64,000 nt of DNA from Alienimonas californiensis (GTDB lineage: Bacteria; Planctomycetota; Planctomycetia; Planctomycetales; Planctomycetaceae). A program made the translations under genes and the position numbers. The number at the start of each line of letters is the position of its first letter. The stretch's first letter is position 1. The notes under the pieces are model-generated. The model ran no database searches. It had not been told where the DNA came from and saw only the letters and a program-made list of their open reading frames with translations. The DNA is taken from contig NZ_CP036265.1 of NCBI RefSeq assembly GCF_007743815.1, forward strand, positions 3,862,823-3,926,822. The letters run 5' to 3'. Positions 7,209-33,249 of the stretch are shown here, one piece after another.

Positions 7209-7246
7209 CCCAGACTACCGAGGCCGCAGCGATCGGACAGGCCGCG

Positions 7247-7612
7247 CTACTCGGCGGCGCCGGGCAGCACGTCCGTGACGAACCGGCCGCCGGACAGCCA
7301 CAGGCCGCTCTCGGTGGGGCGGGTCCATTCGATCTCGACCCGGTAATCGAACTCCCGGGTCTCGCTGGACATCTTCACGCGGCAGTAGCCGACGTTCAGG
7401 GCGCCGCAGGTGAGCAACCCCAGCCCGCCGCGGCTGATCTCGCGGGTCATCGCGGGCACGGTGTTGCCCCGCATCGTCCGGACCTCCGCCGGCACGCACA
7501 GCTCCAGGCGGGGGACGGACCGCTGATCGGCGGCGGGCGGATCCTTCTCGATGCTCTCGAGCACCTCGTGCAGGTCAGAGAGCGTCGGGCGGCTCCAAAC
7601 GTCGGCGGGCAT
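7247..7612 (-). CDS. PilZ-like domain protein
   Basis: 121 residues, soluble. The stretch RSVPRLELCVPAEVRTMRG, then MTREISRGGLGLLT and VKMSSETREFDYRVEIEWTRP, has the spacing of a small PilZ barrel: an N-terminal Arg region followed by a [D/E]-x-S-x-GG turn and a strand with charged residues. PilZ domains bind cyclic di-GMP through an RxxxR plus (D/N)xSxxG pattern. Here the second motif is EISRGG and the arginine motif is incomplete, so c-di-GMP binding is uncertain. A GGDEF enzyme lies elsewhere in the window at 18085. It is 92 bases downstream of the transglutaminase gene. Confidence 0.7.
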   Translation of the reverse strand: MPADVWSRPTLSDLHEVLESIEKDPPAADQRSVPRLELCVPAEVRTMRGNTVPAMTREISRGGLGLLTCGALNVGYCRVKMSSETREFDYRVEIEWTRPTESGLWLSGGRFVTDVLPGAAE

Positions 7613-7704
7613 CTCGGCGGCTTCGCAGGACAGGGTCGGGAACCGAATCTTAGGTCACGAATCCCGGCCGCGCGGGGTCGCTTCGCCGGCGGGCGGGGGA
7701 GCCG

Positions 7705-10110: not shown

Positions 10111-11777
10111 CGGGGCGCTCCGTCGGTCGTCGGGCCGTCGGGGGAGGTGGACTCGAACCGCGGCGGGACGAACAGGTCGTCGTACTGACCGAGCCGGGCG
10201 CTGACGATTTCCCAACCGCCCCCCGGGCCGCGGCGGGAGCCGAGGCCGGCGGCGGCGAACGCGGGATCGTCGGGGGGGCGGGTGGTGATGAGGGCCCGCC
10301 GGGCCGCCGGGCCCGCGGCGGCGGCGGCAGCCGTCGCCGCCGCCGCGAGGTCCACCGCCGCCCCCGGCTCCGCGAGCGCCAACTCCGTCAGCGGCCCCGT
10401 CAGGTCGCCGCCGGCCCGGCCGACGTAAATTCGCTGCTCGGCCCCCGCGGTCCGCAGACTCAGCGTCGCCCCGCCGTGCCGCCGCAGGTGCTCCGTGACG
10501 ATCGTCGCCGCAAGGCTCGCCGCCCGCTCCTCGGTGTTCTCCGTTTCTAGCCCGGGCGGGCCGTCCGCGTGCAGATCGAGCAGCACGACCAGATCGCGGT
10601 CGCGGCTCTCGTGGTACTCCCGCACCATCAGTTCCCCCGCCTTGGCGCTGCTGCGCCAGTGGATCGCCCGGGACCCGTCCCCGGGGCGGTACTCGCGGAG
10701 CTGGTAGAACTCGTCCTCGAACAGCCCTTTCCGCGGACGGGCGTGGTGGGCCGGCTCGTCCGCACGGGCGCCGCGGCGGTCCCAGAGGTGCGTCATCGCT
10801 CCCAGCGGGGGGAGGACCAGCATTTCCGCCTCGTCGCGTGCCACGATCTCCCGCCGCACCAGCCCCATGGGAAAGGCGGTCGACAGGGTGACGGGACCGA
10901 GCGCGTGCGGCCCGCGGGTGCGGGGCTCGAATCGGTAGACGCCCGTCTGCCGCTCGCGGGGCGGCACCCGGGCGAAGACGACGGCCGCGGTCAGATCCTC
11001 CCGGCGATTGCGGACGCGGTCGTTCGCGGTGACCTGCCGCGCGTTCAGCCAGCGACCACGGTAGTTCAACGCCAGTTCGATCAGCGCCACCTCCCCCGCC
11101 GCGGCGACCGCCGGGGCCGAGCGGCGGACCTCGCAGCGGCGGAGGGCGCCGGCGGCGAACCAGCCGTCCGCGGCGATCGGCCCGAGCACCAGACAGCACA
11201 CCAGCAGCAGCATGTTGCTGGGGCCGAGGAACGCCCCCAGCAGGAGCACCCCGGCGATGCCCAGCGCGATCCAGCCGGGCAGGGTCAGCCGTGTGCGTTC
11301 CTCCCGACTGCGGAATCGGGCGGCTCCGGGTCGGGCCAGCCACGCCCGCCGGGCCGCCCCCGTCAGGCACCACACCCCGACCGCCGCCGCGGCCAGCGGC
11401 AGGAAGCCGTACAGCCCCGTCCAGGGGGTGAGCCGCCCTAGACTTGCGGCGAGCAGCAGGGCGCCCAGGCCAATCCACCCCCGGCGGCGGACCGGCCGCG
11501 GGTGTCCGAACCGATCCGGCCGCAGTCTCGCGTCCAGCCGGGCGATCAGATCCGCCAGCACCCAGACCGACAGGGCGCCCGCCGCCGCGGCGGAGAGCAG
11601 CGGGACGGCGGGATCGATCCGGTCCAGCCGTTCCCAGAACGTCGCCAGGAGGACCGCCGCCGCCGCGGAACCGAGCAGGGCGCCCGCCCGGATCAGCACG
11701 AACGTCCCGCGACGGCCGAAATCGGCCGGGGGCGGGCTGTGGGGAGAGACGGCGGGCGCCGGCGGGGCCTCAGTCAT
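10107..11777 (-). CDS. DUF58 domain protein (MoxR-associated type)
   Basis: 556 residues. Several N-terminal hydrophobic helices (about residues 27-50, 57-80, 100-140 and 165-210) precede a soluble region with the DUF58 signature YQLREYRPGDGSRAIHWR followed by SSAKAGELMVREY. A vWA-like C-terminal part begins DLVVLLDLHADG. DUF58 proteins pair with transglutaminase membrane proteins and MoxR AAA+ ATPases, probably in assembling or processing envelope proteins. The stop overlaps the start of the transglutaminase gene. The gene lies 76 bases downstream of the GGQ protein gene. The C-terminal quarter is Ala-rich, with a run of Ala residues around the AAATAAAAAAG segment. Confidence 0.88.
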   Translation of the reverse strand: MTEAPPAPAVSPHSPPPADFGRRGTFVLIRAGALLGSAAAAVLLATFWERLDRIDPAVPLLSAAAAGALSVWVLADLIARLDARLRPDRFGHPRPVRRRGWIGLGALLLAASLGRLTPWTGLYGFLPLAAAAVGVWCLTGAARRAWLARPGAARFRSREERTRLTLPGWIALGIAGVLLLGAFLGPSNMLLLVCCLVLGPIAADGWFAAGALRRCEVRRSAPAVAAAGEVALIELALNYRGRWLNARQVTANDRVRNRREDLTAAVVFARVPPRERQTGVYRFEPRTRGPHALGPVTLSTAFPMGLVRREIVARDEAEMLVLPPLGAMTHLWDRRGARADEPAHHARPRKGLFEDEFYQLREYRPGDGSRAIHWRSSAKAGELMVREYHESRDRDLVVLLDLHADGPPGLETENTEERAASLAATIVTEHLRRHGGATLSLRTAGAEQRIYVGRAGGDLTGPLTELALAEPGAAVDLAAAATAAAAAAGPAARRALITTRPPDDPAFAAAGLGSRRGPGGGWEIVSARLGQYDDLFVPPRFESTSPDGPTTDGAPR

Positions 11778-11853
11778 CCGGCGGGCGTCGGCATGCGGCG
11801 GGCGGGGGCGTCGACATGCGGAGGCGTCGGGGGAGCCGCGTGGCCGGGGACGA

Positions 11854-20215: not shown

Positions 20216-20245
20216 TTGACCGACGAACGCGACCGCCCGTAGCAT
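20216..20245 (+). promoter_or_regulatory. Candidate promoter of the 20295-33249 operon
   Basis: TTGACC (20216-20221), an 18-base spacer and TAGCAT (20240-20245). The predicted start near 20252 leaves a leader of about 43 bases before the ATG at 20295. It is the best -35/-10 pair seen in the 186-base gap between the MazG-like gene and the operon. Confidence 0.45.
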
Positions 20246-20294: not shown

Positions 20295-22136
20295 ATGATC
20301 GTCAATCCGTTCTCCCGCATCGCGGCGCTGCTGGCGTTGGGGGGAACCGTCCTGTTCGCGGCGCCGGCGCCGGCCGCCGATCCGGACAGCCCGCAGGTGA
20401 AGGCGGCGATCGAGAAGGGCGTCGAGTACCTCGCCCGGTCCAAACAGAGCGGCGCCGGGGACGGGCGCCACATCCTTGCGGCGCTGGGGATGGCCAAGGG
20501 CGGGGCCGACAAGAACCACCCGGTCATCGTCTCCGCCCTGGCGGCGATCGACAAACGCACCGCCGACGGCAAGTACCGGCCGGAGCGCGACCACCTCTAC
20601 ACCGCCGGGCTCGAGCTGATGTTGCTCGAAGCGGCCGGCGATCCGGCGACCAACGCCGCCCGCATGCGGCCGATCCTGGGCTACGTCCTCGCCCAGCAGC
20701 AGAACTACGGCGGCTGGTACTACCCGACCCAGGCCGCGGCCAACCCCGGCAACTACTACGGCGACACCAGCATCACCCAGTACGCCGTGCTGGGCCTGTG
20801 GACCGCCGAACGGGCCGGGTTGGACCTGGAAACCCGCGTCTGGAACTCCTTGGCCCAGTGGCAGGTCGCCACGAAGCGGAAGGGCGGCACGTTCGCCTAT
20901 CACCCGCGGCGGGACGGGACGGGGGAGATCAAGGACACGATGACCGCCGCCGGCGCCTGCAACACGCTGCTGAGCGCCCGCTACCTGCACGGCGTCGCCG
21001 CCCTGGACGCCCAGCGGGCGGAGGCCGAGGCCGCCGACCGGGCCGCCCGCGACGCCAAAAACGCCCTGATGAAGAAGTACGCCGCCCTCGACCGCCGGGT
21101 CGACTCCGAGGCGGCGGAAAAGGAACGGCAGCAGCAGGCCGGCGGGCCGGTGGTGCCGCTCTCGACCCTCGTCGGCACCGCCGACGACGCCATCGACGCC
21201 CTCGCCCGCGGCATGCAGTTCACCAAAGGCCCCCACCGCCTGTATTTGATGTACACCGTGGAGCGGCTCGGCGCCCTCTCCGGCCGTCGCCTGTTCGGCG
21301 ACGTGGATTGGTATGAGCAGGGGTCGGAGCTGTTGCTCCGCACGCAGAAGGGCGACGGCTCCTGGGACGGCGAGGGGCAGGGGGAAGTCGGCACCGCCTT
21401 CGCAGTAATGTTCCTCTCCCGGGCCACCGCCAAGGCCCTCGGCGAGCGCAGCCTGTACGGCGGCGGCATGCTCAAGGGCGGCCGCGGCCTGCCGGACGAC
21501 CTCACCCAGGCCCGCTTCACCGGCGACGAAATCACCTTCGACCGCCCCACCGGGGAACTGTCCGATCTGCTCTCCCAGTTGGAGGACCCCCGCGCCGCCA
21601 ACGTGCCCGCCGCCCGCGAGGCGGTGCTGGAGACCGTGCGGCTGGGCGACCGGGAGGCGTTGATTGGCCAGACGGCCCGGCTGCGGCGCCTCGTCGACGA
21701 CCCGCGGCCGGAGGTGCGGGCGGTCGTCGCCTGGGCACTGGCCCGCGGCGGCGGGGCGGAGGACGTGGAGGCGATCTTCCAGATGCTCGCCGAGGACCCG
21801 GACGCCGGCGTCGTGCAGGAGGCCCACAACGCCCTGTGCGTACTCGCCCGCCTGCCCCGCGGCCCCGCCATCCCCTTGGCGATGTTGCCGGAGCGCGAAG
21901 CGGCCCTGCGGCGGCTGGACGACCGGGATCTCCCGGCGACCTACGTGACGAACCGCCGCCTGCGCATCCTGCCGGGCGGTCCGTTCGAGGGCCTGCCGGC
22001 GGGCCTCAGCGACGAGGAGCGGGCGAAGGCCTTTCACGACTGGCGGGCCGTGGCGACCGCCGCCTGGGCCGACTGGCGCGACGCCGTGCGCCCCTACGAG
22101 CAACGCGACCTCGTCCCCGCCCCGAAGCGGCCCTGA
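20295..22136 (+). CDS. Secreted prenyltransferase/squalene-cyclase-like repeat protein with HEAT-like C-terminus
   Basis: 613 residues, first gene of the eight-gene operon. Signal peptide: MIVNPFSRIAALLALGGTV then FAAPAPA. The N-terminal half resembles the alpha/alpha-toroid repeats of squalene cyclases and terpenoid cyclases (IEKGVEYLARSKQS, LAQQQNYGGWYYPTQAA, TQKGDGSWDGEG) but lacks a DxDD-type catalytic motif, so a binding or scaffold role is likelier. A charged helix (about 235-275) follows, and the C-terminal 180 residues have HEAT-type pairs such as RLRRLVDDPRPEVRAVVAWAL and VEAIFQMLAEDPDAGVVQEA. It would act in the periplasm or at the cell surface. The next gene begins 3 bases after its stop. 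Confidence 0.8.
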   Translation: MIVNPFSRIAALLALGGTVLFAAPAPAADPDSPQVKAAIEKGVEYLARSKQSGAGDGRHILAALGMAKGGADKNHPVIVSALAAIDKRTADGKYRPERDHLYTAGLELMLLEAAGDPATNAARMRPILGYVLAQQQNYGGWYYPTQAAANPGNYYGDTSITQYAVLGLWTAERAGLDLETRVWNSLAQWQVATKRKGGTFAYHPRRDGTGEIKDTMTAAGACNTLLSARYLHGVAALDAQRAEAEAADRAARDAKNALMKKYAALDRRVDSEAAEKERQQQAGGPVVPLSTLVGTADDAIDALARGMQFTKGPHRLYLMYTVERLGALSGRRLFGDVDWYEQGSELLLRTQKGDGSWDGEGQGEVGTAFAVMFLSRATAKALGERSLYGGGMLKGGRGLPDDLTQARFTGDEITFDRPTGELSDLLSQLEDPRAANVPAAREAVLETVRLGDREALIGQTARLRRLVDDPRPEVRAVVAWALARGGGAEDVEAIFQMLAEDPDAGVVQEAHNALCVLARLPRGPAIPLAMLPEREAALRRLDDRDLPATYVTNRRLRILPGGPFEGLPAGLSDEERAKAFHDWRAVATAAWADWRDAVRPYEQRDLVPAPKRP

Positions 22137-22139
22137 CCG

Positions 22140-23084
22140 ATGAGCGCCGCGTCCCCCGTCCAGGCCCCCCGCTCGGTGGGCCCCGCAGACCGTCCCGCCG
22201 CGGGCCGTCCCGCCGCGGAGCCGGTGATGGGCGTGACCGGCTACGACCGCGTCAGCGCCGGGGTGATCGCCGCGGCGCTGGGGCTGATCGTGACGGTCGC
22301 CTATCTGTTCGTGCAGTGGTATATGCAGCACGAGTTCGCCGTCGACACCCTCCCGCCGATGGAGGTGATCCAGGTCGGCGGCGGCGATCTCGACGGCGCC
22401 CCGGACGACGCCCCGCTGTTGGAAAGCCTCGCCGAGGCGATCCCCGACCCCAGCCTGTCGGAGTTGCGGGAGGACGAGATGCAGGTGGAGGAACTGATGG
22501 AGACGGTCGTGGACGTTTCCGACCGGGCCGCGAACCCCTCGCCCACGGCGGTAAACTCCGACTCGACCGGCGGGAAGGTCGGCAGCGCCAGCGGGTCCGG
22601 CGGCCGGCCGTTGGGCTTCGGCCCCGGCGACGGCGGCGTCTCCGCGGAGCAGCGTTGGTTCATCTCCTTCAACGAGCAGGGCGGGCTGGAGGAATACGCC
22701 CGCCAACTGGATTTCTTCGGGATCGAACTGGGCGCCCTCGATACCCGCGGCGGGTCCCTGACCATCATCTCGAACCTCACCGCCCCCAAACCGACCGTCA
22801 CGGTGAAGCAGGGCGGCGGCGCCGACGAGCAGCGGCTCTACATGATCTGGCAGGGCGGGGGTCGCAAACAGGCGGACGTCAAGCTGTTCGCCAAGGCCGG
22901 CCTCGACGCCTCCGAACTGCCCATCCTGCACTTCTACCCCGCCCGTACGGAGCAGACGTTGCTCCGGCTCGAACAGCAGCACGCGAACCGTCCGCTGGCC
23001 GACGTGCGCCGCACCTACTTCGAGGTGCAGCCCGGTGGCGGCGGTTACACGTTCCGCGTCGCTCAGCAGTCCTACCTCCGCTGA
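22140..23084 (+). CDS. Single-pass membrane protein with periplasmic domain, TonB/TolA-like topology
   Basis: 314 residues, not matched to a named family. The N-terminal 35 residues are Pro/Ala-rich and cytoplasmic. A single hydrophobic helix (AGVIAAALGLIVTVAYLFV, about residues 40-58) follows, then an acidic extended linker (60-160, with ESLAEAIPDP and REDEMQVEELMETVVDV) and a Gly/Ser hinge. A folded C-terminal domain (165-314) begins EQRWFISFNEQGGLEEYARQ. That anchor-linker-domain design, directly upstream of ExbB and two ExbD genes, is what TonB and TolA look like, but there is no recognisable TonB C-terminal motif. It starts 3 bases after the previous stop. Confidence 0.75.
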   Translation: MSAASPVQAPRSVGPADRPAAGRPAAEPVMGVTGYDRVSAGVIAAALGLIVTVAYLFVQWYMQHEFAVDTLPPMEVIQVGGGDLDGAPDDAPLLESLAEAIPDPSLSELREDEMQVEELMETVVDVSDRAANPSPTAVNSDSTGGKVGSASGSGGRPLGFGPGDGGVSAEQRWFISFNEQGGLEEYARQLDFFGIELGALDTRGGSLTIISNLTAPKPTVTVKQGGGADEQRLYMIWQGGGRKQADVKLFAKAGLDASELPILHFYPARTEQTLLRLEQQHANRPLADVRRTYFEVQPGGGGYTFRVAQQSYLR

Positions 23085-23147
23085 CGCGGCCGCCCGCACG
23101 GCTTTCCCCGACGACCCGTCCCCCGACGAAGCTTCCCGACCCCCGCG

Positions 23148-23798
23148 ATGCCCATTCTCGATTTTGCCGGTCTGGCGATTTACGTCGCGCTGGGCCTCAC
23201 CGCGCTGGTGGGGTTGTTCATCACCGTGCTGCTGGTCCGCCGCGTCGCCCAGAAGCGGTTCAGCAACGCCAAAGCGGCGGACGAGTTCGTCGAGGAATGC
23301 CTCGCCCTGGTGGAGCGCCGCGACTACGCCGCGGTGACGGAGCTGTGCGATTCGCCGCCCTACTGGAGTAAGGCGACGCCGCAGCTCATTCAGACCGCCA
23401 CGGAGAACCGCCACCTGCCGCCCGCCCGGCTGCGGCGGACTGTTGCGGAGCGGTTCGAGCGGCACGTGCTGGCCGACCTGGAGTACCGCTCCAGCTGGGT
23501 GGCGACGATCGTGAAGACCGCCCCGATGCTCGGGCTGCTGGGCACGGTCGTGGGGATGATCGCCGCCTTCGCCAAGATCGCCGCCGCCGACCAGACGGGC
23601 ACGAACCCCTCGCTGCTGGCGAACGACATCGCGGTCGCCCTAAACACCACCGCCAGCGGCCTAGCGATTGCCATCCCAATGGTCATCGCCGGCAACCTGC
23701 TTCAGAACAAGATCTCGAAGTTGCAGGACGGCGTGGAGGAGCGGCTCGGCCGGTATCTCGACGGGCTGATCGAAGCCGAATCCGGGGCCGCCGGATGA
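23148..23798 (+). CDS. MotA/TolQ/ExbB family proton channel protein
   Basis: 216 residues. Three membrane segments: AGLAIYVALGLTALVGLFITVLLV near the N-terminus, a second around TAPMLGLLGTVVGMIAAFAKI and a third around ALNTTASGLAIAIPMVIAGNLL. The signatures TAPMLGLLGTVVGMI and NTTASGLAIAIP are the pore-lining motifs of ExbB/TolQ, including the conserved Thr residues. A cytoplasmic region (45-120) separates TM1 from TM2, as in ExbB. It should form a pentamer around the ExbD helices and pass protons to drive a partner. The stop overlaps the next start by ATGA. Confidence 0.93.
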   Translation: MPILDFAGLAIYVALGLTALVGLFITVLLVRRVAQKRFSNAKAADEFVEECLALVERRDYAAVTELCDSPPYWSKATPQLIQTATENRHLPPARLRRTVAERFERHVLADLEYRSSWVATIVKTAPMLGLLGTVVGMIAAFAKIAAADQTGTNPSLLANDIAVALNTTASGLAIAIPMVIAGNLLQNKISKLQDGVEERLGRYLDGLIEAESGAAG

Positions 23799-24292
23799 GC
23801 GAATCGCTCGACACGCCCCGCCGCCCGCCGCACGCGCACCTCGCGGAGGAGGAGTACGTCCACACGCCGCGGGAGAAGCGGAAGGAACTCGACTTCGACA
23901 TCACCCCGATGATCGACGTCGTGTTCCTCCTGCTAATTTTTTTCATGGTGAGTAGCACCATGCAGGAGCCCGCGAAGTCGGACGCCCCGCCGGCGGTGCA
24001 CGGGCGGGGGATCGACGCCGCCAGCACGATCAAGGTGATCCTGCTGCCGGAACGCGGCGGGGAGTACGAGGTGGAACTGCCTGACGGCGAGGTCGTCCCG
24101 TTGGCAGAGGCCCTCGAGACCGATCGCATCGCGCAGGCGGTCGCCGCCGCGAAGGCGAACTTCCCGAACAAGACCGAGGCCGTGCTGCTGGCCGACCGCG
24201 ACGCCACCGCGGAGCAGACGTTCCCGATCCTGCGGCAGATCGGCGAGGTGGAGGGCGTCTCGTTTCACACCGAAGTGCAGGACCCCCGCTGA
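23795..24292 (+). CDS. ExbD/TolR family protein (first copy)
   Basis: 165 residues. The cytoplasmic N-terminal tail (about 33 residues, charged, ending EKRKELDFDITPMID) runs into a single membrane helix VVFLLLIFFMVSSTM that carries the proton-accepting Asp in PMIDVVF. The periplasmic domain contains VILLPERGGEYEVELPDG, AVLLADRDATAEQTFPILRQ and the end of the ExbD/TolR fold. The tail is long for the family. It overlaps the ExbB stop (ATGA) and is followed 3 bases later by a second ExbD, so the two probably pair in one complex. Position next to the TonB-like gene supports a PMF-driven envelope function. Confidence 0.93.
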   Translation: MSESLDTPRRPPHAHLAEEEYVHTPREKRKELDFDITPMIDVVFLLLIFFMVSSTMQEPAKSDAPPAVHGRGIDAASTIKVILLPERGGEYEVELPDGEVVPLAEALETDRIAQAVAAAKANFPNKTEAVLLADRDATAEQTFPILRQIGEVEGVSFHTEVQDPR

Positions 24293-24294
24293 CC

Positions 24295-24951
24295 GTGCGG
24301 ATCGCCTTCCCCTGCCCGCATTGTGCCGCCCCGCTGGGGATCTCCGCCTCCCGCGCGGGGGCGGTCGTGCGGTGCCCCTCCTGCCGGGAGATGCTGACCG
24401 TCCCCGAGGAAGACCAGCCGCTGCCCGAGCCGGACCCCGCTGCCGTCTTCGCCCCTGCCCAGGCGCCCCCCGTCCAGGCCCCGCTGAGCGTGCAGTACGA
24501 GGAGGAGCCGTTCAAGTTCTCGCCGAAGCGGCGGGAGCAGGACGAGATGGACCTCACGCCGATGGTCGACGTGACCTTCCTCCTGCTAATTTTCTTTATG
24601 ATCACAGCGAGTTTTAGCATCCAGAAGACGCTCCCCACCCCGGTGCCGGAGCCGGACGAGGAGGGCGTTTCGCAACAACTCGTCACGATGGACGAACTGG
24701 AGCAGGAGGCCGTGGTCGTGCGCTTGGAGGGCGGGGACGAGGCGTACGTGGACGACAAGCCGGTCGCCTCGCTGGCCGACCTGCCGGACGCGCTCCGCGA
24801 CGCGATGAACGCCCCCGGGCAGGCCGGTCGGGGGGAGGTGGTAATCCAGGCGGCGGACGCCGCCCGTCACGAAGCGATCGTCGCCGCCTACGACGCCGCC
24901 GCGGGGCTGGGGGTGGAGCGCGTCCGCCTCGCCATCGCCGCCGAAGACTGA
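24295..24951 (+). CDS. ExbD/TolR family protein with N-terminal zinc ribbon (second copy)
   Basis: 218 residues with a GTG start 3 bases after the previous stop. Residues 1-40 form a Cys4 zinc ribbon (FPCPHCAAPLGI, then VVRCPSCREMLTVPEE), a type common in planctomycete proteins but unusual on ExbD. A Pro/Glu-rich cytoplasmic linker (about 42-80) leads to the ExbD core: DLTPMVDVTFLLLIFFMI with the conserved Asp, a single TM helix, and a periplasmic domain with VVVRLEGGDEAYVDDKPV, VVIQAADAARHEAIVAAYDA and GLGVERVRLAI. The two ExbDs differ mainly in the tails. The ribbon would lie in the cytoplasm and may dock a partner or sense metal. Confidence 0.9.
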   Translation: MRIAFPCPHCAAPLGISASRAGAVVRCPSCREMLTVPEEDQPLPEPDPAAVFAPAQAPPVQAPLSVQYEEEPFKFSPKRREQDEMDLTPMVDVTFLLLIFFMITASFSIQKTLPTPVPEPDEEGVSQQLVTMDELEQEAVVVRLEGGDEAYVDDKPVASLADLPDALRDAMNAPGQAGRGEVVIQAADAARHEAIVAAYDAAAGLGVERVRLAIAAED

Positions 24952-25007
24952 CCGCTCGACCGCTCCCGTCCTTTCGCCTCCTTTTCGCTCCCACAGTCCC
25001 CCGCCAC

Positions 25008-28000
25008 ATGGCCCGTTTGGAGATCACCAGTCCGTCCGGCAAGGTGCGGGAGACCCCGCTGCCGGACGCCGCGGGCCTCACGGTGGGGCGGCACGCCTCC
25101 TCCGACGTCCGGATCAACGCCGACGGCGTCCATCAGATGCACTGCCGGTTCCTGCCGGACGGCGACGGCTACCGCGTCTCCGCCGGCCCGGAGGGCGGCC
25201 TGCGGGTGAACGGCTCCGTCGTCACGGAGAAGCGGCTGGCGGAGGGCGACACGATGATCGTCGGCCCGGCGAAGGTCACCTTCCGCGCCGACCGGCCGCC
25301 CGAAACGATGGCGGAGAGTGACGAACTCACCCTCGTCGCCGCCTCCTCGGACGCACTGCCCGTCTGGGCCGACCCCGCCCGGGCGAAGGCCGCCGCGGCG
25401 GACCGCCAACGCCGCGACGCCCGTCCGGTTTCCCCGGCCCCCGAGAGCAACGAGAAGGCGGCGAAGCCCGCGGCGAAGCGGAAGAGCCGGCGGGCCACGA
25501 CCGCACGGGGCGAGGCCGACGATAACGTCGTGAACGCGGAGGCCCAGACGGCGATCTTCGAGGAGGTCGACGAGGACGACGACCCGTTTGACGACGGCGG
25601 CGACGACCCGAACCCGTTTGCGGTGGAGGAGGAGAACGACGCCGACGCCGCCGACGACGACGGGTTGGGGGCGCTCGCCGCCCTCGCCGCCGACGAAACG
25701 GGCGAAACGCCTGTCGCCGCGGACGGGGACGAAATCCCCGAACCGGCCGCCCCGGTTGCCGACCCGGACAGCGGCGAACAGCCCGTGCTGCTGCCCCCCG
25801 GCGGCCGCTTCGCCCCGCTGACGAAGCTCGCCGGCCCGCCGGCCCGGCCGGGGGAACAGTCGATCTTCAAGAGCCCGCTGGTGATCGGCCTGACCAGCGT
25901 CTCGGCGGCGCTGACGCTGGCGGCGTTCGCCTTCGCCCTCCTGACCGCTCGGGAACAGGCCCAGCGGTTATACGACTCCGCCACGGAACTCCGGGCGACC
26001 GGCAAATACTCCGCGGCGCTGGAGACCTATGACGAGTTCCTGCGGGAACACCCCGCCGACGCCCTCGTCCCTGCCGTGCGGCGGGAGCGGGGGATGACGA
26101 CGATCGAACGGGCGGTCGACGGCTCCGGCGGTAAATGGGCCGAGGGGGTCGCGGCGATCGAGACGTTCGTGCGGGAGAACCGCGACCGCGACGACTTCGC
26201 CGAGAGCCACCCCGAACTGGCGTCGCTCTCCCGCCGGGCGGCCCTCGGCGCCGCGAAGCAGGCGGCCAACGGCGGGCCGCGGGAGTTGCTGGCCACGGTG
26301 GAGGAGGCCCAGACGCTGCATCGCCGCTACGCCGATCCGGAGGCGGCCAGCACGACGGATCAATCGCGGGAGATCGCCGCCGCCCTTCGCACGGCCGAGG
26401 CGGCAGTGGTGAAGCGGGAAACGTTCGGCGACGCCCGGGCCACGGTGAACGCCGCCCTGGAACGGAACGACTTCGCCGCCGCCCACCGGGCGCGGGAGGA
26501 CCTGATCGCCCGCTACCGCGATCTGGCGAACGACCGCGACGTGCGCCGGCTGAAGGCCCAAACGCTTGCCGCGGAGCGGGACGCCGTCGTCACGATTCCC
26601 CCCGCCGACGCCCCGCCGCCGCCGCCCGCCCCGCCCGCGGTGCTCGCCCCGGCGATCGTCTCGCGGGCCAGCACGGGCGAGCGCTCCGACGGCCGGGTGG
26701 AACTCGTCCGGGCAGGATCGAGTCTGTTCGCGGTGGACGTCGTTACGGCCGAACCGCGGTGGCGGGCCGCCGTGGGCGGCGGCGGGGCCGCGGCGTTTCC
26801 GCCGGTCGACGCGGACGCCGCCGGCGCCAGCGTGCTGATCTGCGACGCGGTTCGGCCGGCGCTGCTTTCGGTGCGGCTGGAAAACGGCGCAGTCGACTGG
26901 CGCCTGCCCCTGCCGGCGCCGGCCACGGGGCCGCCCCGCAGCGCCGGGGGGCTCGTTCTGGTCGGCTGTGCGGACGGCTCGCTGCTGGCGGTCGATCCCG
27001 CCAGCGGGGCGATCGACGGCGGGCTGAAGTTCCCTCAAGCCGTGCTCTCCCCGCCGGTCGAGATCGGCGGCCGGGACGACGCGAACGCCGGCCGCCTGCT
27101 GCTCGCCGCGAGGCGGGACGTCGTCTACACGCTCGCCGGCAATCCGCCGGCGGTGGAGGCCGTCAGCTACACCGGCCACGGCGCCGGCGCTCTGGCGGCA
27201 CCGCTCCAGACGATCGGTCGCTACGTGCTGATCTGCGACAACGACCGGGCCGACTCCGCCCTGCTGCGGGCCTGGGCGGTCGACCCCGAGGACGGCGAGG
27301 CGACGGAGGTCGGCCGGGCCCGTGTGCCGGGGCGAATCGACGTGCCGCCGGAACTGCGGGCCGACGTGCTGTTCGTCTCCTCCTCGCCGGAACGCATGAC
27401 GGCCTACGCCGTCACGGATGAGGTCGACAAATCCGTCTTCTCCCGGCTCGCCGCCGCCCAACTGCCCGATCCGCGGCCGGTGCCGACCTACCTGGCCGCC
27501 GGGCCGGACGGGGCGTTGTGGGCGGCGGGCAGCGCCCTTCGCAAGTTGGAACTGACCGGCGACGGGCTGCAGGTCACGCCGGCCGTGCTGGCGGTCGGTC
27601 GGCACGTCGCCCCGCCGCAGACGAACGCGGACCGGCTGTTCACGACCCGCCTGACCCCCGCCGGCACGGCGACGATCTTCGCCGCCGCCGAGGCCGACGC
27701 GATGGTCGGCCTCAGTCGCACCGTCCTGGCGCCCGCCCTGCTGGCGGTAACCGGCGGCGCCCGGCCGGCGGCGCTGTCGGCGACCGGCGTTCTCACCCCC
27801 CTCGGCGACGGCTTCCCAAGCGGGGGGAACGACGGGGCGAACGGCGACGGCGGCACGATCTTCCTCACCAACGGCCGCGTGCTGCCCGATCTGGACGGCG
27901 AGGGCCGCGAATTGCTGCTCGCCCGCCGCCTGCCGGACGGCGGGGCGGCCGTCGGCGTGGGCGGCGAGAATCCCCGGGGCTGGCAGATCGACCCCGACGG

Positions 28001-28787
28001 CCGGGTCGGCCGGCCGATCGATCTGCCCGTCGCCCCGCAGCTCGCTCCGCTGCCGCTGGGGCCGGGCCTGCTGATCGCCGCCGCCCCGCGGCTGGAACTG
28101 GCGACCGGCCGGGGCGGCCCGACGGTCTCCGCCTACACCGCCCCGATCTCCGGCGGCGAAGCCCCGGCGTGGACGGCCTTGGTCGGGCTGTCCGAGACGA
28201 AGGCCGCCGTCACCGACGCCGCCGGCGCCATTCGGCTGATCCAGTTCAATGAGGGCGCTTCCCCGAGCCTCAGCCAGACCGCCGCAATCTCTCCCGAATG
28301 GTTCGCCGATCTGCCGCCCGCGGTCGCCGGGGACGCCCTGATCGTCGCCGGGTCCGACGGCCGTTTGCACCGGCTCAACGGGGCCACCCTGGGCGAGACG
28401 GCCGCCGTCGACCTGCCGGCCCGGGCGGCGTTCGGGCCGACGGCGATCGGCGACCGCGTGCTGGTGGCGCTGGAGAACGGCACGGTCGCCGGGTTCGCGG
28501 CGGCGGATCTGACCGCGGCGACGGTCACCCCGCTGCCGGAGCCGGCCGCCGGGCCGCCCGGGACGGTCGGGGCCGATGCGGCGGCGATCGTCACCGCCGG
28601 CGGCGTCGCGGTGCGGTTCGATCCGATGAGCGGCGAGGCGACCGGCCGGGTGGACACCGGGCAGCCATTGGTCGGGGCGCCATTCCTCGTGGGGGATCAG
28701 CCCGCCGCCGCCGCTGCGGACGGGGCCGTCGTCCGCCTGGACTTCGCCCCGATCGGCGCCGAGGTGGCCGACAGGAGCGAACCATGA
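25008..28787 (+). CDS. FHA domain, single TM, PQQ-type beta-propeller protein
   Basis: 1259 residues; a trans-envelope architecture. Residues about 1-90 are an FHA domain (LTVGRHASSDVRINADGV with GR and SS), a phosphothreonine reader in the cytoplasm. A disordered acidic linker (100-280) is followed by one TM helix (about 292-314, IGLTSVSAALTLAAFAFALL), a short TPR/coiled region (320-520, for example YDSATELRATGKYSAALETYDEFLREHP) and a long propeller (580-1259) with PQQ-like repeats such as RWRAAVGGG, VDWRLPLPAPA and GSLLAVDPASGAID, resembling BamB. The propeller would lie in the periplasm. Kinase partners are not in the window. The gene follows the second ExbD by 56 bases and overlaps the next start by 4. 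Confidence 0.85.
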   Translation: MARLEITSPSGKVRETPLPDAAGLTVGRHASSDVRINADGVHQMHCRFLPDGDGYRVSAGPEGGLRVNGSVVTEKRLAEGDTMIVGPAKVTFRADRPPETMAESDELTLVAASSDALPVWADPARAKAAAADRQRRDARPVSPAPESNEKAAKPAAKRKSRRATTARGEADDNVVNAEAQTAIFEEVDEDDDPFDDGGDDPNPFAVEEENDADAADDDGLGALAALAADETGETPVAADGDEIPEPAAPVADPDSGEQPVLLPPGGRFAPLTKLAGPPARPGEQSIFKSPLVIGLTSVSAALTLAAFAFALLTAREQAQRLYDSATELRATGKYSAALETYDEFLREHPADALVPAVRRERGMTTIERAVDGSGGKWAEGVAAIETFVRENRDRDDFAESHPELASLSRRAALGAAKQAANGGPRELLATVEEAQTLHRRYADPEAASTTDQSREIAAALRTAEAAVVKRETFGDARATVNAALERNDFAAAHRAREDLIARYRDLANDRDVRRLKAQTLAAERDAVVTIPPADAPPPPPAPPAVLAPAIVSRASTGERSDGRVELVRAGSSLFAVDVVTAEPRWRAAVGGGGAAAFPPVDADAAGASVLICDAVRPALLSVRLENGAVDWRLPLPAPATGPPRSAGGLVLVGCADGSLLAVDPASGAIDGGLKFPQAVLSPPVEIGGRDDANAGRLLLAARRDVVYTLAGNPPAVEAVSYTGHGAGALAAPLQTIGRYVLICDNDRADSALLRAWAVDPEDGEATEVGRARVPGRIDVPPELRADVLFVSSSPERMTAYAVTDEVDKSVFSRLAAAQLPDPRPVPTYLAAGPDGALWAAGSALRKLELTGDGLQVTPAVLAVGRHVAPPQTNADRLFTTRLTPAGTATIFAAAEADAMVGLSRTVLAPALLAVTGGARPAALSATGVLTPLGDGFPSGGNDGANGDGGTIFLTNGRVLPDLDGEGRELLLARRLPDGGAAVGVGGENPRGWQIDPDGRVGRPIDLPVAPQLAPLPLGPGLLIAAAPRLELATGRGGPTVSAYTAPISGGEAPAWTALVGLSETKAAVTDAAGAIRLIQFNEGASPSLSQTAAISPEWFADLPPAVAGDALIVAGSDGRLHRLNGATLGETAAVDLPARAAFGPTAIGDRVLVALENGTVAGFAAADLTAATVTPLPEPAAGPPGTVGADAAAIVTAGGVAVRFDPMSGEATGRVDTGQPLVGAPFLVGDQPAAAAADGAVVRLDFAPIGAEVADRSEP

Positions 28788-31519
28788 GCACTCGTTTCCC
28801 TCAACACACGCTCCGGCCGGCGCTGCGGCTGGCGGCGGGCGTGCTGCTCGTTCTCTGCGGCGTCCTGCCGGCGACGGGGCAGGACGGTCTGCCGACGCTG
28901 GAGGACCTGCCGCTACCCAGTGCCGCGGAGCTGCTGGCCCGGCGGCCGACGGACCGGGTGGTGCTGCGAACCGGCGGGGTGATCGAGGTGGCCTCCGTCA
29001 CGCCGCGGCCGGACACCCTCGCCCAGCTGGCCCGCCGTCACGACTTCGTGCAGCGGATGGCTCCCCGTGACGCCGCCAACCGTAAGGCGGAGATCGCCCG
29101 TTACCTCCGCGGCGAACCGGCCGACCCCAAGGTCGCCCTGCGGCCGCAGGCGATCAGTCGCCTCGCCGGCGAGTTCGACGCCCTGCCGGACGAGACGATC
29201 CGCCGGGCGGTGGAGGAACTGTTCGGCCGACAGGCCGCGGAGAAAACGGCCGAGCTGACCGGCGAGCGGCTGCGGTCCGAGGCGGTCGTGGGCAGTCGGG
29301 ACCAGTATCTGGCGATGGCCGAACGGCTCGAACGGCTGGACGTCCTTCTGCTCGACGAGGAACTGGAGGATCCGGAGTTCAGCATCGCCACGTTCAAGGT
29401 GGATCAGGTCATCCACCACGAGAACCTGATGCTGGAGCGGGCCGACGCGCTGCTCGGCGAGGGGGACATGCGCGGCGCCTACGAACTGTTGTTCGCCCTC
29501 GCCCGGATGAACAGCAGCGAGTCGCTGCCCGACGGCTGGCCCGGCCTGCGGGAACGGCTGGATCGGGCCGCCTTCATCGACGCCGGGGAGCTGCTCGAAC
29601 TGGGCCAGCTGGAGCAGGCGTTGGGCCGGATGGAGGTGCTGCTCGACCGGGCTCCGGAGTTTCCGGGCGGGCTGGACCGCCTGGCGGCGGCGGCGGACGG
29701 GCTGATCGAGGCGGCGAACGCCGCCGATGATCTGCGGCAGGCCCGGTTCTTCCTCGCTCGACTCCGCGCCCGCGGGCCGCAGCACCCGGTCACGCGGAAG
29801 TGGGACGCCCAGTTCTCCCAGCGGGCGCAGGCCCTGATGAGCGAGGCGGACGCCTCCGCCGCGAACGACCCGGCCCTCGCCGCGGAGCGCATCCGGGAGG
29901 CGGCCCGCGTCGACCCGACCGCCCCCGGCGTGGAGCGAGCCTTCGCCCGGCATACCCGCCGCTATCAGGTGTTGCGGGCCGGCGTGCTGGACCTGCCGCC
30001 GCCGGAGGCGTTGGGTTCCGGCGAACCGCCGCCGTTCCCCCCGACGGACGCCGCCGATCGCGGGCGGTTCCTCGTCGCCAGCCGGCTGTTCGAGATTGAT
30101 CGGGTCGACGAGGCACCGCACTACCGCAGCAATCTGCTGGAGGGCTGGGAGCCGACCGACCTGGGCCGCCGGGCGACGTTCACCCTGCGACCGCGGTTCC
30201 CGGACTGGCTCCCCCAGCCGCCGCTGGACGCCGCCGACGTGCTGGCCGGGTTGCAGGATCGGCTCGACCCGGCCTCGCCGCTGTTCGAGGAACGGCTCGC
30301 CGAGGAGATCGCCGGCGTGCGGCAGCTTTCGCCGCGGGAGTTCGAGGTGATCTTCGCCCGCGTCCCGCTGCGGACCGAGGCCACGCTGGCCGACCCCGTG
30401 CGGGTCCTGCCGCGGGACGCAGGGACTGAAGGGGGCGAGGCCGCCGCGACGCTGAGAACGCCGTTCTTCCCCCGGGCGCCGGACTCCGCGGAGCGGCCGG
30501 ACACGGCGATCTACCGCCGGGCCGTGCCGGAGCCGGCGGACGCGGTCCGATTCCACGTCGCGGAGGTGCGGGAGACGGCCTACCCCGACGGCCCGGCGCT
30601 GATGCAGGCGTTCCGCCGCGGGGAGTTCGACCTGCTCGTGCATCCCCGCCCATGGGACGTGCCAGGCCTGCTGCGGGACGAAAGCGTGCTGAGTTTCCGC
30701 TCCAGCGTGCCGGCCGCCCACGTGTTGCAGGTCAATCCGCGGTCGACGCGGATGAAGAACGCGGAGCTGCGCAAGGCGTTGCTGCTCGCCCCGGACCGGG
30801 AGACGATCCTGAACGACGCCGTCCTCCGCACCGCGGAGGCCCGGGCGGCGGGGCTGGGGCGGGTGATCTCCGCCCCATTTCCCAGCTTCAGCGAGGCGAC
30901 GAACCCGCTGCTGACGCCCCGTTCGCAGAACCTCACCCTCGCCTTCGCCCTCGCCCTGGCGGCCGGCAAGGCGCTGGGGGAGGAGACCGGCGGGCAGGTG
31001 CCGGAATTGACCGTCCTCGCCCCGGACGACGCCGTCGTCGCCGCCGTGCTGGACGAACTGGCGGCGACCTGGAAGCGGATCGGGCTGTCGATTCGGGTGG
31101 TCAGCGGTTCGGCCGCCGCGACGCTGGCCGCGGACGACCCGGACGGCTGGGACCTTGCCTACCGCACATTGCGGATGCGGGAGCCGGCCCGGGAAATCGC
31201 CCCGCTGCTGACCAACACCGACGACGTGACCCTCGAAAGCCTGCTGACCCTCTCGGACTGGCTGCGGCGGGACCTGATCGCCCTGGAGCGGGTCGGCAAC
31301 CGCAACGACGCCGTCGCCCTGCTGCACGATCTGCACCGCCACATGCGGAGCGAGGTGCGGGTGATCCCGTTGTTCGAGATCGACGAGTACGTCTTCGCCC
31401 GCACCGCGCTGCGGAACGTCGAGGGGCCGCTGGTGCACCCCTATCAGGGCGTCGAACGCTGGCAGGTGGACGCGATCCTGCCCACGGACGACTTCGACTT
31501 GCCGGAGGTCGGACAGTGA
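28784..31519 (+). CDS. Secreted family-5 extracellular solute-binding-like protein with N-terminal helical region
   Basis: 911 residues from the ATG at 28784, overlapping the FHA/PQQ stop (ATGA). The signal peptide (about 1-33, LRLAAGVLLVLCGVLPATGQ) is followed by helical/TPR-like sequence (40-390). The C-terminal half (about 395-911) matches the peptide/nickel-binding SBP family 5 fold, with LQDRLDPASPLFEERLAEEIAG-like helices, LLHPRPW-type loop equivalents, KNAELRKALLLAPDRETIL (a family hallmark) and PSFSEATNPLLTP. No ABC permease or ATPase is nearby, so it is an orphan binding protein, possibly feeding the ExbBD-powered machine. The TPR-SBP fusion is unusual. Ligand unknown. Confidence 0.82.
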   Translation: MSTRFPQHTLRPALRLAAGVLLVLCGVLPATGQDGLPTLEDLPLPSAAELLARRPTDRVVLRTGGVIEVASVTPRPDTLAQLARRHDFVQRMAPRDAANRKAEIARYLRGEPADPKVALRPQAISRLAGEFDALPDETIRRAVEELFGRQAAEKTAELTGERLRSEAVVGSRDQYLAMAERLERLDVLLLDEELEDPEFSIATFKVDQVIHHENLMLERADALLGEGDMRGAYELLFALARMNSSESLPDGWPGLRERLDRAAFIDAGELLELGQLEQALGRMEVLLDRAPEFPGGLDRLAAAADGLIEAANAADDLRQARFFLARLRARGPQHPVTRKWDAQFSQRAQALMSEADASAANDPALAAERIREAARVDPTAPGVERAFARHTRRYQVLRAGVLDLPPPEALGSGEPPPFPPTDAADRGRFLVASRLFEIDRVDEAPHYRSNLLEGWEPTDLGRRATFTLRPRFPDWLPQPPLDAADVLAGLQDRLDPASPLFEERLAEEIAGVRQLSPREFEVIFARVPLRTEATLADPVRVLPRDAGTEGGEAAATLRTPFFPRAPDSAERPDTAIYRRAVPEPADAVRFHVAEVRETAYPDGPALMQAFRRGEFDLLVHPRPWDVPGLLRDESVLSFRSSVPAAHVLQVNPRSTRMKNAELRKALLLAPDRETILNDAVLRTAEARAAGLGRVISAPFPSFSEATNPLLTPRSQNLTLAFALALAAGKALGEETGGQVPELTVLAPDDAVVAAVLDELAATWKRIGLSIRVVSGSAAATLAADDPDGWDLAYRTLRMREPAREIAPLLTNTDDVTLESLLTLSDWLRRDLIALERVGNRNDAVALLHDLHRHMRSEVRVIPLFEIDEYVFARTALRNVEGPLVHPYQGVERWQVDAILPTDDFDLPEVGQ

Positions 31520-33249
31520 GTGGCTCCTTCACCACTCCCGCTGCTCAGAAGCGCCCGCGAAACTGCAAGCGGGGGGTGGAACTGAGTTGGACCGTGCGTG
31601 CGGCCCTCGTGATGGCGGCGTTCGCTTGCGGTTTCGCGGGATCGAATCGCTCTGCCTGGGCTCAGGACGAGGGGCTGCCGGCGTGGGAGCGCCGGGCGTA
31701 CGAGGTGCGCGTGAGCCTCGCCGTGGACGCCGCCGCCGTGCCGCCGGGCCGTTTCGATGAAGTGCGAGACGAGCTGGGCGACCTGCTGTGGCGGACCTTC
31801 GGGGAGCATTGGAACCTGACGTTCGTCCCACCTCCCGCATCGCTGACCCGGGCGGACGCCGCCGGGCTGCGGCGCCTGCGGCCGGAGGATTTTCCGCCGC
31901 CGGCCGACCCGCCGACGGAGGAAGAACCCAACCCCGCCCGCCCGCCGGATCGCTGGTTCGTCGTCACGCTCGGCCCGGCCGCCGCGGTAGGCCGCCGCGT
32001 CGGCGATCCGCAGGCCCGGACGGTCGCCGCTCGGGAATGGGACGGTACGCGGCGGGTTCTCGGCCCGGTGCGGACTGCCGACGCAACCGGCCTGCCCGCC
32101 GCGGTGCAGGCCGCCGGTCGACTGGTTCGAGACCTGTTTCACCCGGAATACCGCGTGGCCCCCGTGCCGGACGCCGCCGTCGACTCGAACGAGGTGCGGC
32201 TGGCCGCCCGGGCCGCCGCCCTGCCGGTTCGCGATCCGGCGGTCGATCCGCTGGCGCCGGGGCGGTGGCTGAGCCTGTTCCTGCGGCTCTATCAGCGGGA
32301 CGGGGCGCTGCGGGACATCCGCGAGACGCCGTACACGTTCGTCCGCGTCGGCCCCGTGCTGGACGAGAACGACCCGGCCCGGGTGCAGTCCGGCGAGGTC
32401 GTCAGCGCCCTGCGGAGCGCCGTGGGGCGGACGCGGGGCCGCACGCAAACGCTGGCCCGACCGATTCATCAGCAGGAGGGCGGCACGACGCTGCGGCTGA
32501 TCGCCCGGGGCAGCGGCGCCGGCGGGGCGGCGGGGCGACCGCTGGTGGGGTATCGGGTGAAGCTCGCTGATCGCCGCACGCTGCCGTCGGAGCGGCCGCC
32601 GCCGGAGGGGGGCGAGGAGCGCCCGGAGCCGGAGCCGATCCCGGAACCGTTCGAGGAAGTCAGCGACCGCGGCGGCCGGATCACGGTTCCCGCCGCCCCG
32701 CCGACGCTGCCGGACGCGGAGCCGACCAAAGGGCTCGTCTGGCTGCACGTCTACAGCGGCAAGGCGAAGCTGGGGGCGTTGCCGTACGTCGCCGGGGCGG
32801 TTCCCGCCGACGTGCTGGAACTAGACGACGACGCCCTGCGACTGGGCCTGGAGGGCGAATATGCCCTGTTGTCCGGCGAGATGCTGGAGGTCGTCGCGCA
32901 CCGGGCGGTGCTGACGGCCCGGGCCAAGAAGAGCGCCAAGGAAAAGAGCTACGCCGAGGCCGAGGCCCGGCTGGAGGAGCTGTCCGGGCTGCCGCGGGCG
33001 GAGGCGTTCAAGCGCCGCATCGACGCCCTCGCCGCCGGGGTGCGGGCGGAGGCGCTGGAGTCCGGCGACCGCCTGACCGCCGCCCGGGTCGCGAAACTCG
33101 CGGAGAAGATGCGGGAGCTGGCGAATACGTACCTCTCCGCCGACCCTCTCGCCGCGGCGAAGTCGCAGGTCGCCGAGCTGAAAACGCTGGCGGAGGAGAT
33201 CGAGGAACGCGAACGCCGCGCCGCCGGCCGCCGGGCCCGGGAGCGTTGA
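31516..33249 (+). CDS. Secreted hypothetical protein, last gene of the ExbBD operon
   Basis: 577 residues; GTG start at 31516 overlapping the previous TGA (GTGA). A positively charged N-terminal stretch precedes a hydrophobic signal (AALVMAAFACGFAGSNRSAWA, cleavage near AWA-QDEG). I recognise no family. The middle (about 40-420) is beta-rich with many Pro and Arg residues (FVVTLGPAAAVGRR, RPIHQQEGGTTLRL). A Pro/Glu segment around 375 precedes a further domain (TKGLVWLHVYSGKAKLGALP). The last 130 residues are helical or coiled (AEARLEELSGLPRAEAFKRR, KLAEKMRELANTYLSADPL). The context says it belongs to the same envelope complex as the ExbB/ExbD genes. It is convergent with trpF, 21 bases away. 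Confidence 0.75.
   Translation: MSGSFTTPAAQKRPRNCKRGVELSWTVRAALVMAAFACGFAGSNRSAWAQDEGLPAWERRAYEVRVSLAVDAAAVPPGRFDEVRDELGDLLWRTFGEHWNLTFVPPPASLTRADAAGLRRLRPEDFPPPADPPTEEEPNPARPPDRWFVVTLGPAAAVGRRVGDPQARTVAAREWDGTRRVLGPVRTADATGLPAAVQAAGRLVRDLFHPEYRVAPVPDAAVDSNEVRLAARAAALPVRDPAVDPLAPGRWLSLFLRLYQRDGALRDIRETPYTFVRVGPVLDENDPARVQSGEVVSALRSAVGRTRGRTQTLARPIHQQEGGTTLRLIARGSGAGGAAGRPLVGYRVKLADRRTLPSERPPPEGGEERPEPEPIPEPFEEVSDRGGRITVPAAPPTLPDAEPTKGLVWLHVYSGKAKLGALPYVAGAVPADVLELDDDALRLGLEGEYALLSGEMLEVVAHRAVLTARAKKSAKEKSYAEAEARLEELSGLPRAEAFKRRIDALAAGVRAEALESGDRLTAARVAKLAEKMRELANTYLSADPLAAAKSQVAELKTLAEEIEERERRAAGRRARER

Follow-up and report, generated by a model that had tools for sequence, protein, structure and literature searches.

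The closest described relatives of the locus reported here are the Ton system (ExbB-ExbD-TonB), the Tol-Pal system (TolQ-TolR-TolA-TolB-Pal-CpoB), the Agl-Glt and Nfs systems of Myxococcus, and the vWA force transducers. According to the accessible part of PMC3169522, AglR-AglQ-AglS comprises one ExbB and two ExbD proteins, and GltG joins an FHA domain through a transmembrane (TM) segment to a periplasmic portion. The publication closest to our subject (Mol Biol Evol 2025, PMC12204202) deals, in its accessible part, with a different, vWA-bearing set. Here, we describe an eight-gene operon of Alienimonas californiensis, located at positions 20295 to 33249 of a 64,000-nucleotide stretch (NZ_CP036265.1, positions 3,862,823 to 3,926,822, forward strand) referred to as the window, and designate its genes, all lying on the plus strand, g1 to g8 in their order of occurrence.

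A sequence-only reading of the window had proposed that these genes form a tight, single-promoter operon for a proton-powered envelope machine outside the classical Ton and Tol roles, which would sense phosphorylation inside the cell and bind ligands or partners outside. We consider it reasonably probable that the operon encodes a class-specific, TolQR-type trans-envelope machine of Planctomycetia, driven by the proton motive force (PMF) and equipped with partner proteins in the periplasm and a new candidate for the transducer. Motors of this kind are known; the novelty lies in the candidate transducer, in the set of partners and in their broad conservation within the class, none of which was recognised in the literature searched, available for most papers as listings.

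Conservation and distribution of the operon

The source genome consists of a single contig of 5.48 Mb, and its closest named relative is Alienimonas chondri (g2 identity of 82–84%; class Planctomycetia by NCBI), whose locus was the one match in a genome-contig search carried out with the single g2 sequence. The g2 gene was matched in 52 of 59 related genomes, the source genome included, and was not matched in plasmids. Flanking sequences taken for 35 of the 51 other g2-positive genomes provided 36 g2 loci (genome G041 has two); locus L056, which covers the A. chondri stretch already represented by L038, was kept out of the locus counts, and L055, a weak second place in G055, had no hit. The motor genes follow g2 in 22 of the 36 loci, 17 of them complete from g2 to g8 (L060, with its in-frame stops in g6 and g7, is counted here), three cut by contig ends (L038, L046, L054) and two split (L050, L071). 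In seven loci g2 is joined directly to g6, with g3-g5 elsewhere, and in five g2 (with or without g1) stands apart while g3-g4-g5-g6 lie together elsewhere in the same genomes, accompanied by g7-g8 in four of these five. The last two are distant copies standing alone. Since g1 adjoins g2 in just 20 of the 36 loci, it is the loosest part.

The operon is kept as three modules, [g1 g2], [ExbB ExbD ExbD] and [g6 g7 g8], contiguous or split, and in most genomes with loci read g2, g6, g7 and g8 recur with the motor, either joined to it or in fixed modules; the exceptions G052 (L040) and G034 (L107) carry g6 without adjoining g7-g8. This conserved gene order in other genomes indicates an operon beyond chance. 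A lack of synteny outside this strain, which would have refuted the earlier proposal, was not observed, and the idea of a single-strain oddity was rejected. No general further neighbour was found among the 25 largest groups of other open reading frames (ORFs), many of which are antisense shadows of known genes; a kinase-like family present at 12 loci is not a general neighbour either. Genome G041 of family f6 holds two copies of the g2-g5 set (L046, L054), the second one diverged.

In a sample of 236 genomes from the phylum, g2 and g8 were each matched strongly in the same 15 genomes, all belonging to the family or class of the source genome. Weak partial g2 matches in eight other genomes covered the N-terminal and linker part (best E of 4e-7), and partial g8 matches in three others covered positions 9–208 of 465 (best E of 1e-9). 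The non-matching genomes of this sample are partly listed, and class members without a match were not counted; within the sample and at this search sensitivity, the set is restricted to the class. Of the seven genomes without g2 among the 59, two belong to the family (78–88% completeness), four to f3 and one to f4. The f3 genomes examined (G038, G047, G051, G053) carry proteins distantly similar to g6 and an ExbB that falls, though diverged, in the g3 group.

The motor genes g3, g4 and g5

The g3 gene (23148–23798, plus strand) encodes an ExbB/TolQ-type proton channel (PF01618, E of 2e-26), and g4 (23795–24292, plus strand) and g5 (24295–24951, plus strand) encode two ExbD/TolR-type proteins (PF02472); g3 exceeds the Pfam MotA_ExbB cut-off, and both g4 and g5 that of ExbD. 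The membrane Asp of ExbD and two channel Thr residues of ExbB are, we assume, the residues needed by this motor family. The sequence-only reading had stated that both ExbD proteins keep this Asp, and it is indeed present in all ExbD rows inspected, as are the Thr residues equivalent to Escherichia coli T148 and T181 in 23 of 23 ExbB sequences. Judged by its residues, the motor appears competent. It also appears nearest to TolQ/TolR, since g3 scored 68.9 bits with the TolQ hidden Markov model versus 51.2 bits with that of ExbB, both far below cut-off, and TolQ was its best match among solved structures (1e-17 versus 5e-14 for ExbB). The g5 protein starts with a zinc-ribbon-like CxxC...CxxC stretch (sub-cut-off MJ0042 match), seen in 24 of 33 loci with g5 and not in seven f2 loci, L046 and L050.

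An ExbB tree, built by a quick method from 54 rows (seven of the initial 61 had been removed, five of which duplicated rows that were kept) and containing some long branches, united g3 with the relocated motors of f2 and the triads of f3 in one group. Its Shimodaira-Hasegawa-like approximate likelihood ratio (SH-aLRT) support is 93, a value to which the program does not yet give a star. Outside this group fall the remaining two triads of the source genome. One of them (L126, about 6889–11779; G000:C1, about 2846.9–2851.8 kb) reads orphan-vWA-TPR-ExbB-ExbD-ExbD and is directly followed by complex I (nuo) genes, the vWA and TPR matches being below the Pfam cut-offs. The other (L127:6671–13699) begins with an orphan and a TPR protein and includes a 1311-amino acid (aa) protein without a Pfam family. 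The source genome thus holds three sets of one ExbB and two ExbD, and this combination alone does not mark the operon as novel. A CheY-like response regulator gene adjoins g3 in five of the seven unlinked f2 motors (L114, L115, L117, L118, L119) and is not a general feature.

The transducer candidate g2

The 314-aa g2 product (22140–23084, plus strand) has a short cytoplasmic start, one TM segment (residues 36–62 by hydropathy), an acidic, glycine-rich linker and a conserved C-terminal domain of about 145 residues. Ten residues are invariant over 37 members: G152, G163, R172, W173, Y186, L190, E278, T292, F294 and V307. No Pfam family was found for the window protein, none is common to more than one of the 37 members, TonB_C was found in no member, and no vWA match was obtained by sequence or profile. 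The g2 profile gave nothing better than an E of 0.47 against solved structures, and probabilities of 0.4–1.1% against E. coli TonB (0.5%), E. coli TolA and the vWA-like protein of the genome; each target being one single sequence, a very distant kinship may have escaped detection. The earlier statement that this protein lacks the TonB C-terminal motif thus holds. Of the TonB/TolA-like character assigned to it, the layout is borne out; no similarity to TonB or TolA was detected, and the TM histidine is absent in 35 of 37 members.

An SHLS histidine motif in the TM helix of the TonB/TolA type is named in the accessible part of PMC12204202. One of the two g2 members with a TM histidine, the distant f3 copy L053, has it in a TolA-like setting (LLHVIVF), which may be a hint of descent. 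This homologue (L053:6516–7442) lies downstream of an Hsp70 gene.

Search for Ton and Tol-Pal components

Pfam searches of the source genome detected no TonB_C, TonB-dependent receptor, TolA or TolB_N domain, in agreement with the earlier view that neither of the classical roles, Ton or Tol, fits. The absence of TolA (PF06519) and TolB_N is weak evidence, because these searches were positive in just one (E. coli) and three, respectively, of 14 control genomes. Three OmpA-domain hits were found in the genome, none of them in the operon and one beside a MotA-type gene. A TonB-dependent receptor exceeded the cut-off in 20 of the 59 genomes and in 19 of the 52 g2-bearing ones; the other 33, including all seven of family f2, had none, two of them showing a sub-cut-off match.

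The FHA-like domain of g6

The g6 gene (25008–28787, plus strand) encodes an FHA-like domain, one TM segment (residues 289–314 by hydropathy), helical repeats and a BamB-like propeller, the FHA and PQQ_2 parts being recognised by Pfam. At an E of 0.01, two BamB entries were the sole solved proteins matched by the propeller (best E of 1e-7). Aligned with the GltG model, the FHA end gave an E of 4e-5 and 22.4 bits against a cut-off of 650.

Phosphothreonine binding by FHA domains presumably depends on conserved Arg, Ser and His residues, and we take the Ser position to be the phosphate-binding one. Of 25 g6 sequences in hand, 22 entered alignment A5 (L060, L061 and L062 were left out), and the g6 copies L106–L110 and L112 stand outside the FHA counts. 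Pfam FHA was found in 18 of the 22 aligned sequences; none of these 18 has Ser or Thr at the phosphate-binding position, six keep the Arg and 17 the His, and an Asn-Gly pair is visible in many rows of the alignment. L060, read by eye, has an FHA-like start without that Ser and without the Arg, so that all 19 orthologues with FHA lack the Ser. The domain itself is absent in six of the 25 proteins: another helical stretch occupies its place in L047, L048, L049 and L051 (families f5 and f7), and it is simply missing in L061 and L062 (family f1). Because of these two observations, phosphorylation sensing, which the sequence-only reading had attributed to this domain, is unlikely as a general role, and we rejected it. 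The Yop-YscD_cpl family, an FHA fold of type III secretion, matches 18 of the 22 proteins and stays below cut-off for the window protein. We read the FHA-like part as a putative docking domain with a structural role at the inner membrane rather than as a reader of phosphothreonine. In L060 (genome G020), g6 and g7 each contain one in-frame TAA, either an error or real.

Remaining partners and operon layout

The g1 gene (20295–22136, plus strand) encodes a 613-aa protein with squalene-cyclase-like repeats (SQHop-like match below the Pfam cut-off) and HEAT_2 repeats, and g7 (28784–31519, plus strand; 911 aa) a protein with a helical N-terminal part followed by an SBP_bac_5 domain (PF00496, E of 1e-21); both begin with a signal-like segment by hydropathy. 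The g7 family profile matches the NikA, DppA and MppA structures, and its SBP domain aligns with binders of nickel, dipeptides, heme and murein peptides. The g8 product (31516–33249, plus strand), without a relative in Pfam or among solved structures (nothing better than an E of 0.47 with its profile), is probably exported, as judged by eye from the protein start; the hydropathy threshold gave no membrane segment. The binding of ligands or partners outside, as proposed earlier, is suggested only by the names of the domains.

The presence and order of all eight genes were as first described, and five of the seven junctions do not exceed four bases: gaps of 3 (g1-g2) and 2 bases (g4-g5), and 4-base overlaps at g3-g4, g6-g7 (ATGA) and g7-g8 (GTGA). 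Those of g2-g3 and g5-g6 are wider (gaps of 63 and 56 bases). In the first ORF list, g7 and g8 began too early; their starts lie at 28784 and at about 31516 (GTG, 577 aa), respectively, and a codon-usage call moves several starts later. A candidate promoter, TTGACC-18-TAGCAT (20216–20245, plus strand), is the sole sigma-70-like site in the 14 kb between 19700 and 33700, where 0.2 are expected. Both of its hexamers are identical in A. chondri, the spacer between them being partly diverged. The tight one-promoter operon of the initial description is consistent with these data. GGDEF and MazG genes on the same strand lie upstream and a PRAI gene on the opposite strand downstream; they look unrelated and bound the unit.

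Discussion

In the machine that we propose, akin to Tol-Pal or Agl-Glt in its 5:2 motor and tether, a g3 pentamer would turn a heterodimeric g4-g5 axle, and the single-pass g2 protein, perhaps together with the single-pass g6, would take up the movement and convey it through the periplasm. There, a working end specific to this system may be formed by g7, g8, the g6 propeller and the C-terminal domain of g2; its partner would lie at the outer membrane or close to it. The proton-powered envelope machine originally envisaged is thereby retained in its motor residues, synteny and distance from Ton and Tol, and modified in that phosphorylation sensing is dropped.

Several observations weigh against this proposal. 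The operon contains no outer-membrane or peptidoglycan-binding partner, and a conserved neighbourhood speaks for shared function, not for physical assembly. As the motor lies elsewhere in the seven loci where g2 adjoins g6, g6-g8 could use another motor. The missing TM histidine makes the coupling of g2 to the motor a guess, and an AlphaFold2 model of g2, from two alignment rows, was unusable (predicted local distance difference test, pLDDT, of 34; predicted template modelling score, pTM, of 0.18). Finally, the system is not universal in the class: in the well-assembled f4 genome G039, itself of the class, g2 found no match, the ExbB groups among other paralogues, and the best match to g6 is confined to a short stretch of the propeller.

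The output at the outer membrane is left to three readings, all compatible with a trans-envelope machine, among which outer-membrane upkeep and macromolecule import lead. For upkeep, which we rank first as a tentative possibility, the operon would replace Tol-Pal and pull the outer membrane inward in budding and growth. The TolQ/TolR affinity of the motor and the lack of TolA and TolB_N hits favour it, and the propeller and helical repeats of g6 echo TolB and CpoB. The outer membrane matters, as bamA and most lipid A genes are reported to be essential in Planctopirus limnophila (accessible part of PMC10632474). However, the operon lacks a Pal-type peptidoglycan-binding domain, the OmpA-domain hits lying elsewhere, g2 does not match TolA, and the TolA and TolB_N searches have the limited reach described above. 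Macromolecule import, which we regard as doubtful, would make crateriform structures the sites where the motor powers the passage of polymers through the outer membrane, g7 serving as binder in the periplasm. In the accessible part of PMC5394234, carbonyl cyanide m-chlorophenyl hydrazone (CCCP) stops the uptake of dextran and green fluorescent protein by Gemmata obscuriglobus, the material gathers in the periplasm by a mechanism called unclear, and crateriform structures are press-stud-like contacts of both membranes. These structures are given as lacking or not observed in Phycisphaeraceae, with one strain n.d. (accessible parts of PMC8882080 and PMC7783415); neither g2 nor g8 was matched strongly outside the class, in a sample not resolved into Phycisphaerae, and the operon's SBP gene has no ABC permease gene beside it. 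Yet such a class-level match amounts to a single evolutionary event, which budding, also a class trait (PMC8882080, in part), fits equally; the operon has no pore or pilus gene, and no crateriform structures were observed in the class member Caulifigura coniformis (PMC7717036, in part). A bolder version, in which g2-g8 build or power the press-stud-like crateriform links and drive CCCP-sensitive macromolecule uptake into an enlarged periplasm, replacing TonB and its receptors, so that the operon would be the engine of class-specific envelope contacts, strikes us as rather unlikely.

An Agl-Glt- or Nfs-like use, with the motor moving envelope cargo for surface motion or surface-polymer export, seems improbable: the one-ExbB, two-ExbD composition and the FHA-TM-periplasmic protein recur, and the FHA end of g6 matches the GltG model, but g6 stays far under its cut-off and has no TonB end, the operon has no Glt TPR or barrel partners, and the g7 SBP is without a counterpart in the Glt table (PMC3169522, in part). 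The locus might also combine two unrelated units, the motor triad and a separate g1-g2-g6-g7-g8 complex; this is unlikely, since the seven loci in which they lie apart are set against 22 joined loci spread across several families, and motors that have been relocated fall in the same ExbB group. A classical Ton system serving TonB-dependent receptors is very improbable and was rejected: ExbB/ExbD with a single-pass periplasmic protein and receptors in 19 of the g2-bearing genomes would suit it, but the source genome has neither TonB_C nor a receptor, 33 g2-bearing genomes have no receptor over the cut-off, and g2 does not resemble TonB.

The machine that we favour is present in most sampled class members, and a working end including two proteins without a known family (g2 and g8) makes it a compact target. 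The class is still puzzling in its unusual budding, its crateriform structures and its energy-dependent uptake of macromolecules, for which the operon is a fair candidate, and a further PMF-driven transducer would be added to TonB, TolA and the vWA family. A description of gene deletion exists for P. limnophila (PMC5394234, in part). In Rhodopirellula baltica, exbB RB12053 and exbD RB12055 rise in salt stress (PMC2754498, in part); they may or may not be orthologues of the operon genes.

Compared with known systems, the operon shares its motor fold with Ton, from which it differs in lying in a genome without TonB_C or a receptor hit. With Tol-Pal it shares a TolQ/TolR-type motor, a single-pass candidate transducer, a periplasmic propeller and helical repeats, but it has two unlike ExbD proteins, a g2 without TolA similarity, no TolB_N hit, no Pal, a propeller that is BamB-like and membrane-anchored, and an SBP. 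One ExbB with two ExbD and an FHA-TM protein are common to Agl-Glt and Nfs, whereas here the FHA protein has no TonB end and a propeller and an SBP stand in place of the Glt partners. The vWA force transducers, as presented in the accessible part of PMC12204202, are alike in their occurrence in the Planctomycetota-Verrucomicrobiota-Chlamydiota (PVC) group, in a TolQ-like gene with two unlike TolR-like genes and in a TM-linker-globular protein; g2 differs in having no vWA match and, in most members, no TM histidine, and the source genome carries a vWA-transducer-like set (L126) separately from the operon.

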